Shown: piece after piece, positions 7,389 through 10,497 of the stretch | Numbering within the stretch: the stretch's first letter is position 1 | Layout: every line of letters begins with the position of its first letter | Assembly: GCA_937872685.1 (NCBI GenBank) | Contig: CALMTS010000434.1 | Coordinates: 1 to 35,040, forward strand | From: an uncultured Desulfomicrobium sp. | GTDB taxonomy: Bacteria > Desulfobacterota > Desulfovibrionia > Desulfovibrionales > Desulfomicrobiaceae | Length of the DNA: 35,040 bases | Reading direction: 5' to 3' | Notes under the pieces: generated by a model | What the model was told of the DNA's origin: nothing | The model's database searches: none | The model's input: the letters and a program-made list of their open reading frames with translations, nothing else | Made by a program: the position numbers and the translations under genes

Positions 7389-7417
7389 TTGACACTGCCG
7401 TATGCAGCTCTTAATCA
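7389..7417 (+). promoter_or_regulatory. Probable sigma-70 promoter for the gene at 7484
   Basis: A perfect -35 box TTGACA (7389-7394) is followed after 17 bp by taatca (7412-7417), a weak -10. The predicted start near 7424 would give a 5' leader of about 60 nt that contains a strong hairpin. Confidence 0.45.
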
Positions 7418-7427
7418 ATTGACCTTT

Positions 7428-7460
7428 GGCCCAGGCGCGCTTTTCGCGCGGACCCGGGCC
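7428..7460 (+). other. GC-rich hairpin in the 5' leader of the gene at 7484
   Basis: Outer arms ggccc (7428-7432) and gggcc (7456-7460) and inner arms cgcgc (7436-7440) and gcgcg (7446-7450) enclose a ttttc loop. It lies between the predicted promoter and the ribosome site and has no T run in either direction that would make it a clear terminator. Confidence 0.5.
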
Positions 7461-7483
7461 GCAGAAAACTCGACGAGGTGACA

Positions 7484-7831
7484 ATGTACGATATCAGATT
7501 GGTCAAGCTGGTGAACGGCGACATGGTGCTGGGCAAGTGGGATCAGGAAAAGGGTCTCATCAAGGACCCGGCCATCCTGCAGACCATCCCCACCCAGCAG
7601 GGCGGCGTGCAGATGCTGCTGCTGCCTTTCGGCTACCCCTTCGACCAGGAAATGGAAGGCGAGATCGACCAGCGGCACGTCATGTACCAGTACAAGACCG
7701 TGCCCGAGGAGCTCAAGACCAAGTATCTTGAGGCCACCACCAACCTGACCCTGTCGGCCCCCGGCGGCCTGCGCAATCTTGGCGGCATGGGCGGCGGCGT
7801 ATCCGATTTCAGCAAGTTTCTGAAAAAGTAA
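7484..7831 (+). CDS. Small protein of unknown function, possibly Sm-like fold
   Basis: A 115-residue soluble protein with no signal peptide. ATG 7484 is chosen because GAGGTGA (7475-7481) precedes it; an in-frame GTG at 7478 is within that site. The N-terminal part (IRLVKLVNGDMVLGKW, then IKDPAILQTIPTQQGG, then MLLLPFGYPF) has alternating beta-strand patterning. It resembles small phage and bacterial proteins described as LSM/Sm-like: a ligand-loop NGD, a DPA turn and a late LPF strand. A conserved-looking EELKTKYLEATTNL helix and a Gly-rich segment (GGLRNLGGMGGG) end the protein. It sits alone between its own promoter and terminator. The fold call is inference from pattern only. Confidence 0.7.
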   Translation: MYDIRLVKLVNGDMVLGKWDQEKGLIKDPAILQTIPTQQGGVQMLLLPFGYPFDQEMEGEIDQRHVMYQYKTVPEELKTKYLEATTNLTLSAPGGLRNLGGMGGGVSDFSKFLKK

Positions 7832-7855
7832 CCCGAACGCGGGGCTTCCGCAGAA

Positions 7856-7894
7856 AAGGGTGGCTCTGCCACAAGTGGCGTGCCGCCTTTTTTT
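7856..7894 (+). terminator. Intrinsic terminator after the gene at 7484
   Basis: The arms aagg+tggc (7856-7859 and 7861-7864, one bulged G) pair with gccgcctt (7882-7889). A run of seven T residues follows (7888-7894). It ends 28 bp before the radical SAM start codon, so that gene needs its own promoter or read-through. Confidence 0.75.
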
Positions 7895-7922
7895 CTGCCC
7901 GGCTTCCGTCTCCCAAGGACAC

Positions 7923-10469
7923 ATGAAGGCTCTTCTTCCCCTTTTCTCCCGGCCCAGCCACTATCTCGGCACCGAGATCAACAGCGTGCACAAGGACCCG
8001 GCCACGGTTTCGGCCCATGTGGCCCTGGCCTTTCCAGACCTGTACGAGGTGGGCATGTCCTACCTCGGCCAGAAGATCCTCTACGACATCGTCAACGCGG
8101 ACGACCGCTTCTACGCCGAGAGAGTCTTTGCGCCCACCGAGGACGTGGCAGCGGTGCTGCGCGAACACGGCGCGCCCCTGGCCACCCTGGAGAGCGACAC
8201 GCCCCTGGGCGGCCTGGACGCGGTGCTCTTCAGCATCACCCATGAGCTGTGCTACACCAACGTCCTCTACATGCTCGACCTGGCCGGGATTCCCCTGCGC
8301 GCCGCCGAACGCCGTGACGGCCACCCCCTGGTCGTGACCGGTGGCGGCTGCACCTTCAACGCCGAGCCTCTGGCCGCCTTCGTGGATGTCATGGTGCTGG
8401 GCGACGGCGAGGAAATTCTGCCGGAGATGCTCGGGGTCATGGCCCGCGGGAAGGACGAGGGCCTCGACCGGGCAGGGCTCATCCGCCGTCTGGCCGCGTT
8501 GCCGGGCGTGTACGTGCCGTCCTGTTTCGAGGACGACGGCAGCGGGGCCATGCGCCCTGTGGGGGGCGGGCAGGAAAAGGTGGAGAAGCGCGTCGTCCTG
8601 GACATGAACAAGGTGTCCTTCCCCACGCGGCAGATCGTGCCCTTCGGCAAGCCCGTGCATGACCGCCTGTCCGTGGAGATAGCGCGCGGCTGCACCCGCG
8701 GCTGCCGCTTCTGCCAGGCGGGCATGATCTACCGGCCCGTGCGCGAGCGCGAGGTGGACGTGCTCGGCTCCATCATCGATCAGGGCCTCGCCGGGACGGG
8801 CAGCGAAGAACTGTCCTTCCTGTCGCTGAGCACCGGGGATTTCAGCGCCCTGGAAGCCCTTTTCCTCTCTTCCTACAGCCATTGCCGCCAGGAGCAGGTC
8901 TCCATTTCCCTGCCGTCCCTGCGCGTGGGTTCGGTTTCCGAGGACCTCATGCGCCTCATGGGCAAGATCCGTCACACGGGCATGACCCTGGCCCCCGAGG
9001 CCGGCACCCAGCGCCTGCGCGACGTCATCAACAAGGGCGTCACCGAGGAGGAACTCCTCGACCATACCTCCAAGGCGTTCCGCCTGGGCTGGCAGCAGGT
9101 CAAACTCTATTTCATGATCGGGCTTCCCACCGAGACCCCGGACGACCTGGACGGCATCCTGGACCTCTGCCTGAAGGTGGCGGCCAGCGCCGGCAGGGGC
9201 GCCAAGCGTCTGCAGATCACGGCCGCGGTCTCGCCTTTCGTGCCCAAGCCGCACACGCCCTTCCAGTGGGAGCGGCAGATTTCCATGGCCGAGATCGAGG
9301 AGCGCATCGGCTACCTGCGCAATATCTTCCGGCCGTACCGCAAGCTCAAGCTCAAGTGGCACCACTCGCACATGACCTATCTCGAAGGGGTCTTCTCCCG
9401 CGGCGACAGGCGGCTGGCGCCGGCCCTGGAGGCGGCCTACCGCAAGGGCGCACTCTTCACCAGCTGGTCTGACCACCTGCGTCTGGAACCCTGGCTCGAA
9501 GCCTTCGAGGAGACAGGAGTGGAGCCTGACGCCTATCTGGCCGCGCGTGATCCGGAACGTCCCCTGCCTTGGGACCACCTGGCCTCGGGCGTGAGCCGGA
9601 AGTTCCTGCTGACGGAACGTCGGCGCGCCCTCGAAGGGGCCGTGACGCCCGACTGCCGCTATGAATCCTGCCGCGCCTGTGGTGTCTGCACCCTGGATGG
9701 CCGGTCTTCGGAGCTGTCCGGGCAGGCCGCGCAGAGCGAAATCCTCCCCGTCATCAACCGCGCCACCCGCGACCAGGAAGAACCCGGCGGGCTCGATGAC
9801 TCGCCGGCGCCGGCCGTGGACCTGCAGCACAGGGAGCAGCGTTTCCGGTTGTGGTATTCCAAGACGGGCCCGTCCATGTACCTGAGCCAACTGGAGTTGC
9901 AGCGTATCTTCGAGCGGGCTTTCCGGCGGGCGCGCTTGCCCCTGGCCTTCAGCGGAGGGTTTCATCCCGCGCCGCAGCTGTCCTTTGCCCGGGCTCTGCC
10001 CGTGGGCGTGGGCAGCGTGTGCGAGTGGATGGATTTCTTTGTCCGCGAGCGCCTGGACGTCTCGGACCTGCCCGCCCGCCTCGATGCGGAGCTGCCTGCG
10101 GGTATGCGCACCGCGCGGGTGGACGAGTTGCCCTGCCAGCGCCGCGCCCCCATATCGGTCCGCGAGCGTTTCCAGCTGGGATTTGCGCGCAAGGAGGACA
10201 GCGACCGCTTTTCCTTGCGTCTTGCCGCTTTTGTCGAGGCCGCGGAGTGGAAGGTGTCCAAGCTGACCAAGAAGGGCGAGCCCGGGGAGGTCGACGTGCG
10301 GCCCATGGTCCAGTCCGCCGACAGCAGCGAAGACGGCTATGTCATTGATTTTGATTGGCAGGCCTTGTACGTCAGCCCGGTATTCGTGCTGCAGGCCATT
10401 GATCCGGATTTCTCCCTGCTGCAGGGGCGCCTGCTCAAGACGGCGCAGTTCTTCGAGGGCGGGGAATGA
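7923..10469 (+). CDS. TIGR03960-type radical SAM protein fused to TIGR03936/DUF2344 domain
   Basis: An 848-residue protein. The N-terminal region looks like a degenerate B12-binding-type domain (SYLGQKILYDIVN, LGGLDAVLFSITHELCYTNVLYML). The radical SAM core follows with the cluster motif CTRGCRFC (Cys257, 261, 264), SVEIARG, the LSLSTGDFS and APEAGTQRLRDVINKG segments and KLYFMIGLPTET. A Cys-rich linker (CRYESCRACGVC) precedes the C-terminal domain from about residue 640 (WYSKTGPSMYLSQLEL, AFSGGFHPAPQLSFARALPVG), which matches the radical-SAM-linked DUF2344 family. The substrate is unknown to me; in other bacteria such genes often adjoin rng and rplU, but here they do not. ATG 7923 has AAGGAC upstream, and the open frame before it overlaps the terminator. 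Confidence 0.9.
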   Translation: MKALLPLFSRPSHYLGTEINSVHKDPATVSAHVALAFPDLYEVGMSYLGQKILYDIVNADDRFYAERVFAPTEDVAAVLREHGAPLATLESDTPLGGLDAVLFSITHELCYTNVLYMLDLAGIPLRAAERRDGHPLVVTGGGCTFNAEPLAAFVDVMVLGDGEEILPEMLGVMARGKDEGLDRAGLIRRLAALPGVYVPSCFEDDGSGAMRPVGGGQEKVEKRVVLDMNKVSFPTRQIVPFGKPVHDRLSVEIARGCTRGCRFCQAGMIYRPVREREVDVLGSIIDQGLAGTGSEELSFLSLSTGDFSALEALFLSSYSHCRQEQVSISLPSLRVGSVSEDLMRLMGKIRHTGMTLAPEAGTQRLRDVINKGVTEEELLDHTSKAFRLGWQQVKLYFMIGLPTETPDDLDGILDLCLKVAASAGRGAKRLQITAAVSPFVPKPHTPFQWERQISMAEIEERIGYLRNIFRPYRKLKLKWHHSHMTYLEGVFSRGDRRLAPALEAAYRKGALFTSWSDHLRLEPWLEAFEETGVEPDAYLAARDPERPLPWDHLASGVSRKFLLTERRRALEGAVTPDCRYESCRACGVCTLDGRSSELSGQAAQSEILPVINRATRDQEEPGGLDDSPAPAVDLQHREQRFRLWYSKTGPSMYLSQLELQRIFERAFRRARLPLAFSGGFHPAPQLSFARALPVGVGSVCEWMDFFVRERLDVSDLPARLDAELPAGMRTARVDELPCQRRAPISVRERFQLGFARKEDSDRFSLRLAAFVEAAEWKVSKLTKKGEPGEVDVRPMVQSADSSEDGYVIDFDWQALYVSPVFVLQAIDPDFSLLQGRLLKTAQFFEGGE

Positions 10470-10497
10470 AAAAGGGCGAAGCGTTTGCTTCGCCCTT
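10470..10497. terminator. Bidirectional hairpin terminator shared by the radical SAM and mucR-like genes
   Basis: A perfect 11-bp stem, aagggcgaagc (10472-10482) with gcttcgccctt (10487-10497) and a gttt loop, lies between the two convergent genes. On the minus strand it is followed by TTT and then CATT, with two further T residues inside the stem, so it best ends the mucR-like transcript. On the plus strand the T run is almost absent. Confidence 0.75.

Follow-up and report, generated by a model that had tools for sequence, protein, structure and literature searches.

The window – the whole 35,040-nucleotide stretch analysed here, from an uncultured Desulfomicrobium – carries a small gene whose protein family is shown by computation to be a bacterial branch, carried on chromosomes, of the cyanophage Sm-like family represented by the crystal structure 3by7 and by phrog_527. 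Computation likewise establishes the gene itself, its predicted fold, its kinship and distribution, the hydrophobic tip at the C-terminus of its product and the pattern of promoter and terminator around it. The family is already known from phages and from a single crystal structure; what is new, as far as our literature search shows, is a branch with linker and tip that is near-universal on the chromosomes of two phyla. That search covered open-access titles and the beginnings of abstracts with a few terms, and within it the family is not described in Desulfovibrionales or Deferribacterota. As to what the protein does, we favour an Sm-fold, probably ring-forming adaptor, in which the ring would handle nucleic acid and the tips would recruit a partner – a proposal that we hold in even balance between acceptance and doubt.

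The gene and its predicted fold

The gene is real. An open reading frame of 115 codons on the + strand begins with ATG at 7484 and has a stop ending at 7831; GAGGTG stands three bases upstream of this ATG, which is thus the likely start and makes 7428-7483 the leader. The closest named record, from Desulfomicrobium (L034), is 96% identical. The features of the gene and its product are as follows.

7484-7831, + strand: gene for a 115-residue Sm-fold protein of the 3by7 / phrog_527 family (open reading frame, profiles and predicted model)
7475-7480, + strand: Shine-Dalgarno-like GAGGTG, identical in 12 aligned leaders of the genus
7490-7741, + strand: predicted Sm-like barrel and subsequent helix, residues 3-86 (AlphaFold2 model)
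7745-7804, + strand: Gly-rich linker, residues 88-107, predicted to be disordered (pLDDT below 50; Gly fraction in 89 proteins)
7805-7828, + strand: C-terminal tip DFSKFLKK, a hydrophobic tip kept in the family (89 of 89 distinct cellular proteins)

An AlphaFold2 model of the window protein, built on an alignment of 48 family members (A2), has a mean pLDDT of 80, with ten-residue blocks at 88-97 over residues 1-80 and the block 81-90 at 72. The predicted elements are strands at residues 4-9, 14-20, 25-36, 42-48, 60-62 and 66-69 and a helix at 75-86, beyond which the tail (88-107) falls below a pLDDT of 50. A sequence-only reading of this DNA had claimed an NGD turn and a layout of β-strands recalling Sm-like proteins, and its hunch about the fold was good, as its regulatory hunch, taken up below, was not: VNGDM is present in the protein, the model is strand-rich and matches 3by7 best, profiles match both 3by7 and phrog_527, and the comparison with Hfq and Sm folds that it had proposed returned a predicted Sm barrel, not the absence of one.

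Structural comparison points consistently to 3by7. Foldseek against the PDB gave seven matches at E ≤0.001, every one of them 3by7 or its TIP60 fusion, with spliceosomal Sm proteins next in line (E 0.019 upward). In VIA the top match of the window model was 3by7_D (Z 10.9, rmsd 3.3, 83 aligned residues), with TIP60 entries at Z 8.3, 7.3 and 6.8, and with SmD2 and MazF chains tied at Z 6.0 and below. A second model, of a Deferribacterota member – built like the first on a shallow alignment (Neff 2.6 for A2) and not fully independent of it, since the two alignments have members in common – again put 3by7 first (3by7_C, Z 9.0, rmsd 2.6 over 80 residues); MazF and Sm chains reached no more than Z 5.9. 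The five-stranded barrel of the Sm/LSm superfamily is present in the predicted models, Sm chains matching the window model at Z ≤6.0, and both models follow it with a helix, as in the 3by7 / phrog_527 family. A library of predicted virus structures returned 24 matches at E ≤0.001, of which the named ones are phage proteins; one, at E 0.001, from Synechococcus phage S-CAM3, is named an Sm-like domain-containing protein. The models thus predict that the window protein shares the Sm fold, with 3by7 as its nearest relative.

The level standing of MazF and CcdB chains with Sm proteins in VIA (Z 5.5-6.0, and about 4.9-5.9 for the second model) raises the question of whether the barrel is instead of the MazF/CcdB type, the fold of toxin-like nucleases and gyrase poisons. 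However, 3by7, also the best profile match, lies far above both groups in both models; Foldseek puts Sm proteins immediately after 3by7; and the gene is near-universal in Desulfovibrionales. We consider a MazF/CcdB-type barrel most improbable. As a separate observation, a KTSC-domain chain (7x8c) weakly matches family residues about 49-86, the end of the barrel and the helix (E 0.42 and 1).

Kinship with phage proteins and the C-terminal tip

The kinship is visible in profiles. That of the cellular family matched 3by7 at E 0.0069 when it held 19 sequences and at E 1.1e-4 with 48 (A2); phrog_527 is matched by 39 of the 48 members (best E 6e-6) and by the window protein itself (E 0.0031); and hhalign aligned A2 with a cyanophage profile (A7) over 78 columns, with a probability of 93% and E 3e-7. 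From the phage side, two cyanophage proteins match phrog_527 at 2e-40 and 8e-34, and the one of these compared with 3by7 matches it at 2e-9; relatives of the cyanophage protein at E 0.001 number 353 among 50,697 phage records. The link surfaces only through profiles and structure, or through chance-level tblastn with one Deferribacterota member. Direct phage matches of the window protein by tblastn were nil, as were phage relatives by cellular profiles in two scans of viral contigs. The Deferribacterota member gave five phage matches (E 0.7 to 6) that taken alone are at chance level; two of them were confirmed by the phrog_527 profile, one of these also by 3by7. A Desulfovibrionales member gave three (E 1 to 6).

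Pfam assigns the window protein to no family even at E 10. Individual family members did match PG_binding_5 (20 of 48, best E 0.0011) and five further families, and for this reason these matches were judged to be chance.

3by7 is the best match by structure and, at E 1.1e-4, a match by profile; the PDB title of this protein from an uncultured source calls it structurally similar to Sm/LSm-like RNA-binding proteins. Das and colleagues reportedly described it in 2009 as a pentamer from a marine metagenome, of putative cyanophage origin. One account describes the Sm-like part of the TIP60 fusion as a five-fold assembly (PMC12389965). The two differ in length, 3by7 having 100 residues (of which its chains hold 76-86), whereas the cellular protein has a roughly 20-residue linker rich in Gly, and its tail is longer. 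With phrog_527, a phage family of unknown function, the cellular family shares a profile match, what looks like a related hydrophobic C-terminal tip and, by eye, a KL-[VI]-[KR]-...-G-[DE] stretch as well as (K/R)HV.Y in many members; it differs in that the cyanophage copies examined have no Gly-rich linker, and in that the cellular copies stand as single genes behind a promoter-like site, followed in some cases by a terminator. One cyanophage gene (L135:2998-3294) bears the misleading annotation 'TIP60 protein', a name probably taken from the designed fusion containing the 3by7 domain.

The hydrophobic tip is proposed here, and not by earlier authors, as a feature of the family. It follows a linker with a Gly fraction of 0.35 across 89 distinct full-length cellular proteins, all 89 of which hold a hydrophobic pair within their last six residues, against 123 of 992 six-residue stretches of the linker. 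Among the other ORFs of the phage loci, a fairer control for a C-terminus, 77 of 274 pass the same loose test, so that chance is not negligible for any single protein. (L111, for which no start was found, and L106, with masked bases, were left out, as were truncated members such as L033, L054 and L061 from the tail counts.) A pattern that recalls clamp binding, [DNS]-h-[SGTA]-x-h-h-[KRT], defined after the tails had been seen, is present in 56 of 89 tails and in none of the 89 proteins elsewhere.

Among phage relatives the tip takes a stricter form: in all 27 distinct close relatives from cyanophages the last three residues are a hydrophobic triplet (-LIL/-LIV), compared with 0 of the 274 other ORFs from these loci, and the same holds for eight more cyanophage-type proteins that are 33-52% identical to the query. 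A terminal triplet (such as -LIL or -IIL) is also found in 24 of 28 Deferribacterota proteins. The relative from a Sinorhizobium jumbo phage (L231) has no tip, and that from a huge uncultured phage (L223) passes the loose test only. Desulfovibrionales tips, unlike the phage -LIL end, usually add one or two terminal lysines; the window protein, ending in DFSKFLKK, has the hydrophobic pair but not the exact -LIL end. The simplest reading of a kept tip at the end of a flexible, disordered arm is a docking peptide. That it resembles a clamp-binding peptide in particular is offered as an idea only.

The neighbourhoods of the phage copies were viewed in twelve stretches, ten annotated and two without annotation. 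A clamp-loader gene lies beside or near the phage copy in six of the ten, two of which also have RegA or a putative translation repressor nearby, and in four of the ten the neighbours are mostly hypothetical.

These elements suggest a mechanism for the adaptor. The 86-residue core would form an Sm-type barrel with a helix behind it, where Hfq has a helix in front, and would probably assemble into a small homo-oligomeric ring, by homology probably a pentamer. From each subunit would extend a flexible Gly-rich linker tipped by a short conserved hydrophobic end. The ring may bind or guide RNA (or single-stranded DNA), while several hanging tips may recruit one partner protein, such that the whole would serve as a nucleic-acid adaptor. 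The ring, its nucleic-acid ligand and the docking of a partner are steps that we infer.

The charge of the protein bears directly on the second of these. The cellular family is acidic, with a median pI of 5.07 (4.8 for the core), as compared to 4.57 for the cyanophage set and 6.92 for the Hfq core; such acidity would be unusual in a general RNA binder and makes a pure protein scaffold a serious rival. The scaffold would be an Sm-fold ring whose ligand surface has fallen into disuse and whose tips collect a partner such as a component of replication or of RNA polymerase – a role with which the retention of the tip while the preceding linker varies, and the position of several phage copies among clamp-loader genes, would both accord. 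Yet the nearest solved structure carries a title that likens it to RNA-binding proteins, and no partner or binding site is pointed to. We consider the scaffold fairly unlikely. A broader conjecture, possible although tentative, is that two phyla keep a near-universal, acidic Sm-fold ring, shared with cyanophages, whose tipped arms dock an ancient partner such as RNA polymerase, a nuclease or the sliding clamp.

Distribution and the relation to Hfq

A central issue is how the family relates to Hfq. The two have in common their fold class and their place as small bacterial genes, and Hfq too has a flexible C-terminal tail. An identity with Hfq was rejected: there is no Pfam match, hhalign against 15 Hfq sequences gives 0.6% for the cellular family (3.2% for the phage family), and the predicted model opens with strand 4-9, without the N-terminal helix of Hfq. 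Moreover, the YKHA of Sm2, invariant in 15 of 15 aligned Hfq rows, is missing from the window protein, which has RHVMY there, and the core of the family is the more acidic. No Hfq chain is among the VIA rows shown, an absence from which, according to the tool itself, nothing can be concluded. To the Sm/LSm proteins of archaea and eukaryotes (PF01423) the likeness is one of structure (Foldseek E ≥0.019, VIA Z about 4.6-6.0), the differences being the helix that follows the barrel in the model and the LSM profile, which matches neither the window protein nor anything in 61 Desulfovibrionales genomes.

In those 61 genomes the family is present 59 times; the exceptions are G007, which is 63% complete, and G016, at 96%. 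Within the genus it occurs in 15 of 16 genomes. Hfq (PF17209) gave no match at E 1 in the window's own genome, with positive controls, and none over cut-off in the 61 genomes, control genomes again being positive; two Hfq-like matches of about 18 bits, below the cut-off, came from G032 and G040. A sample of 197 genomes from the phylum held the family in 8 (all Desulfovibrionales), Hfq in 51, both in 0 and neither in 138. In 50 genomes of Deferribacterota the family was found in 44 and Hfq in 31: both in 27, the family only in 17, Hfq only in 4 and neither in 2.

The figures for Desulfovibrionales invite the view that the protein is a functional stand-in for Hfq, its ring pairing small RNAs with mRNAs where Hfq is lacking: not one of the 61 genomes has Hfq over cut-off or an LSM match while 59 have the family, and no genome of the phylum sample has both. 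This exclusion weighs little, however, given that 138 of the 197 genomes have neither and that the eight with the family belong to a single order. Nor do the acidic core and the want of any sequence relation to Hfq sit easily with such a role, and the coexistence of the two in 27 of 50 Deferribacterota genomes indicates that their jobs are not exclusive and that the family is not simply Hfq's stand-in. We regard the stand-in as unlikely.

If the broader conjecture of an acidic ring with partner-docking arms is true, bacteria would have another type of Sm-fold system in addition to Hfq, and the Hfq-less Desulfovibrionales would have in it the one Sm-fold protein that this analysis recognised there. 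Predictions of candidate small RNAs are on record for strain G20 of that order (PMC11124144). With small RNAs predicted in one of its strains but no Hfq over cut-off in 61 genomes, the order would have in this protein a candidate post-transcriptional or other nucleic-acid adaptor. In addition, kinship to cyanophage proteins of unknown function, combined with a related tip, would provide one testable handle for the cellular and the phage proteins alike.

An observation apart concerns Hfq itself: many Deferribacterota genomes have, besides a normal Hfq, an ORF of about 155-200 residues with two tandem Hfq-profile matches (for example G252:C85:13228-13659 and G265:C1:152371-152802).

Transcription unit, leader and neighbours

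The gene lies between a promoter-like site and a terminator, with a hairpin in its leader and a conserved neighbour downstream.

7389-7417, + strand: promoter-like TTGACA (7389-7394), 17 nt spacer and TAATCA (7412-7417), conserved in the genus
7435-7450, + strand: GC hairpin GCGCGC-TTTT-CGCGCG, present, but not above chance and with a stem not kept in the genus
7857-7894, + strand: intrinsic terminator, a stem-loop and T run (folding z, recurrence in the genus)
7923-10469, + strand: fusion of TIGR03960 B12-binding radical SAM and TIGR03936, the conserved downstream neighbour

CTTGACA is invariant in the 12 aligned leaders of the 15 from the genus; L014, left out of the alignment, has none in its 120 nt. 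A consensus promoter scan lists no promoter. Across the family a promoter-like pair lies within 140 nt upstream at 63 of 79 loci, against 22 of 790 control stretches, by a pattern defined after the sequences had been inspected. Judged from this site, transcription would start near 7424 and the hairpin would fall within the transcript. Downstream, the stretch 7826-7905 has a folding z of -2.93, a stability reached in 0 of 200 shuffles, and a terminator-like element recurs at 13 of the 14 loci of the genus and, more widely, at 33 of 74, compared with 11 of 395 control stretches; a terminator scan lists none on the + strand. The conserved promoter-like site and the terminator make the gene look, in the genus, like its own short transcription unit. 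We thus suppose that it is made as a short transcript of its own, running from a near-consensus promoter-like site to the terminator, in which the leader hairpin has no demonstrated part.

The sequence-only reading had given that hairpin a larger role, seeing a strong stem with a U-rich loop and imagining autoregulation, in which the protein would bind the loop and repress itself. Hairpin and loop exist: there are five perfect pairs in either of two registers, with a loop of ctttt or ttttc, and the leader fold contains a longer imperfect stem (7424-7464). A start downstream of the hairpin, which would have spoken against the proposal, is not what is predicted, the promoter-like site being upstream, and a CTTTTC run stands at the hairpin site in 7 of 12 aligned genus leaders. 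The strength of the stem is another matter, for its stability is at chance: z = -1.31, with 16 of 200 shuffles at least as stable, while among 1420 60-mers of matched GC content from the window 165 are as stable as the leader. GC hairpins with at least three T in the loop number 8 on the + strand, where some sites count in each of two registers, and 3 on the - strand, as compared to 3.05 per strand in Markov copies.

Comparison across the genus gives the same picture. The 15 leaders have folding z from -1.63 to +0.40; RNAalifold of 10 leaders yields -3.7 kcal/mol with a covariation term of -0.22; the window stem is paired in 49.6% of cells (10 leaders, 9 distinct) versus 47.1% when shuffled, a level reached by 91 of 500 shuffles; and covariation, the check that had been suggested, is at chance, being equalled in 95 of 500 shuffles of the 10 leaders. 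By eye, no such element appears in the leaders of other families in the order. The hairpin is neither above chance nor covarying, and its stem is not retained across the genus; autoregulation by way of the leader therefore lacks support, and we hold it to be scarcely probable. Rfam gives no match in the leader; its sole match in the window at gathering scores is a tRNA gene (1110-1183, - strand).

The genes that follow do not indicate a partner, for they differ by phylum. Among the loci with at least 1 kb downstream, a radical SAM gene of the TIGR03960/TIGR03936 type lies downstream on the same strand within 600 nt at 57 of 74; five of the 17 loci without it are from Deferribacterota. There, a homologous ORF group follows on the same strand at 14 of 20 loci, overlapping the Sm-fold gene or beginning within about 35 bases of its stop, and the one member examined is a NUDIX protein; the two may possibly form an operon. 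In Desulfovibrionales the TIGR03960/TIGR03936 fusion is the common downstream neighbour. Behind it in the window, between the convergent radical SAM and ROS/MUCR-type genes, lies an eleven-pair hairpin (10472-10497) that is possibly a two-way terminator.
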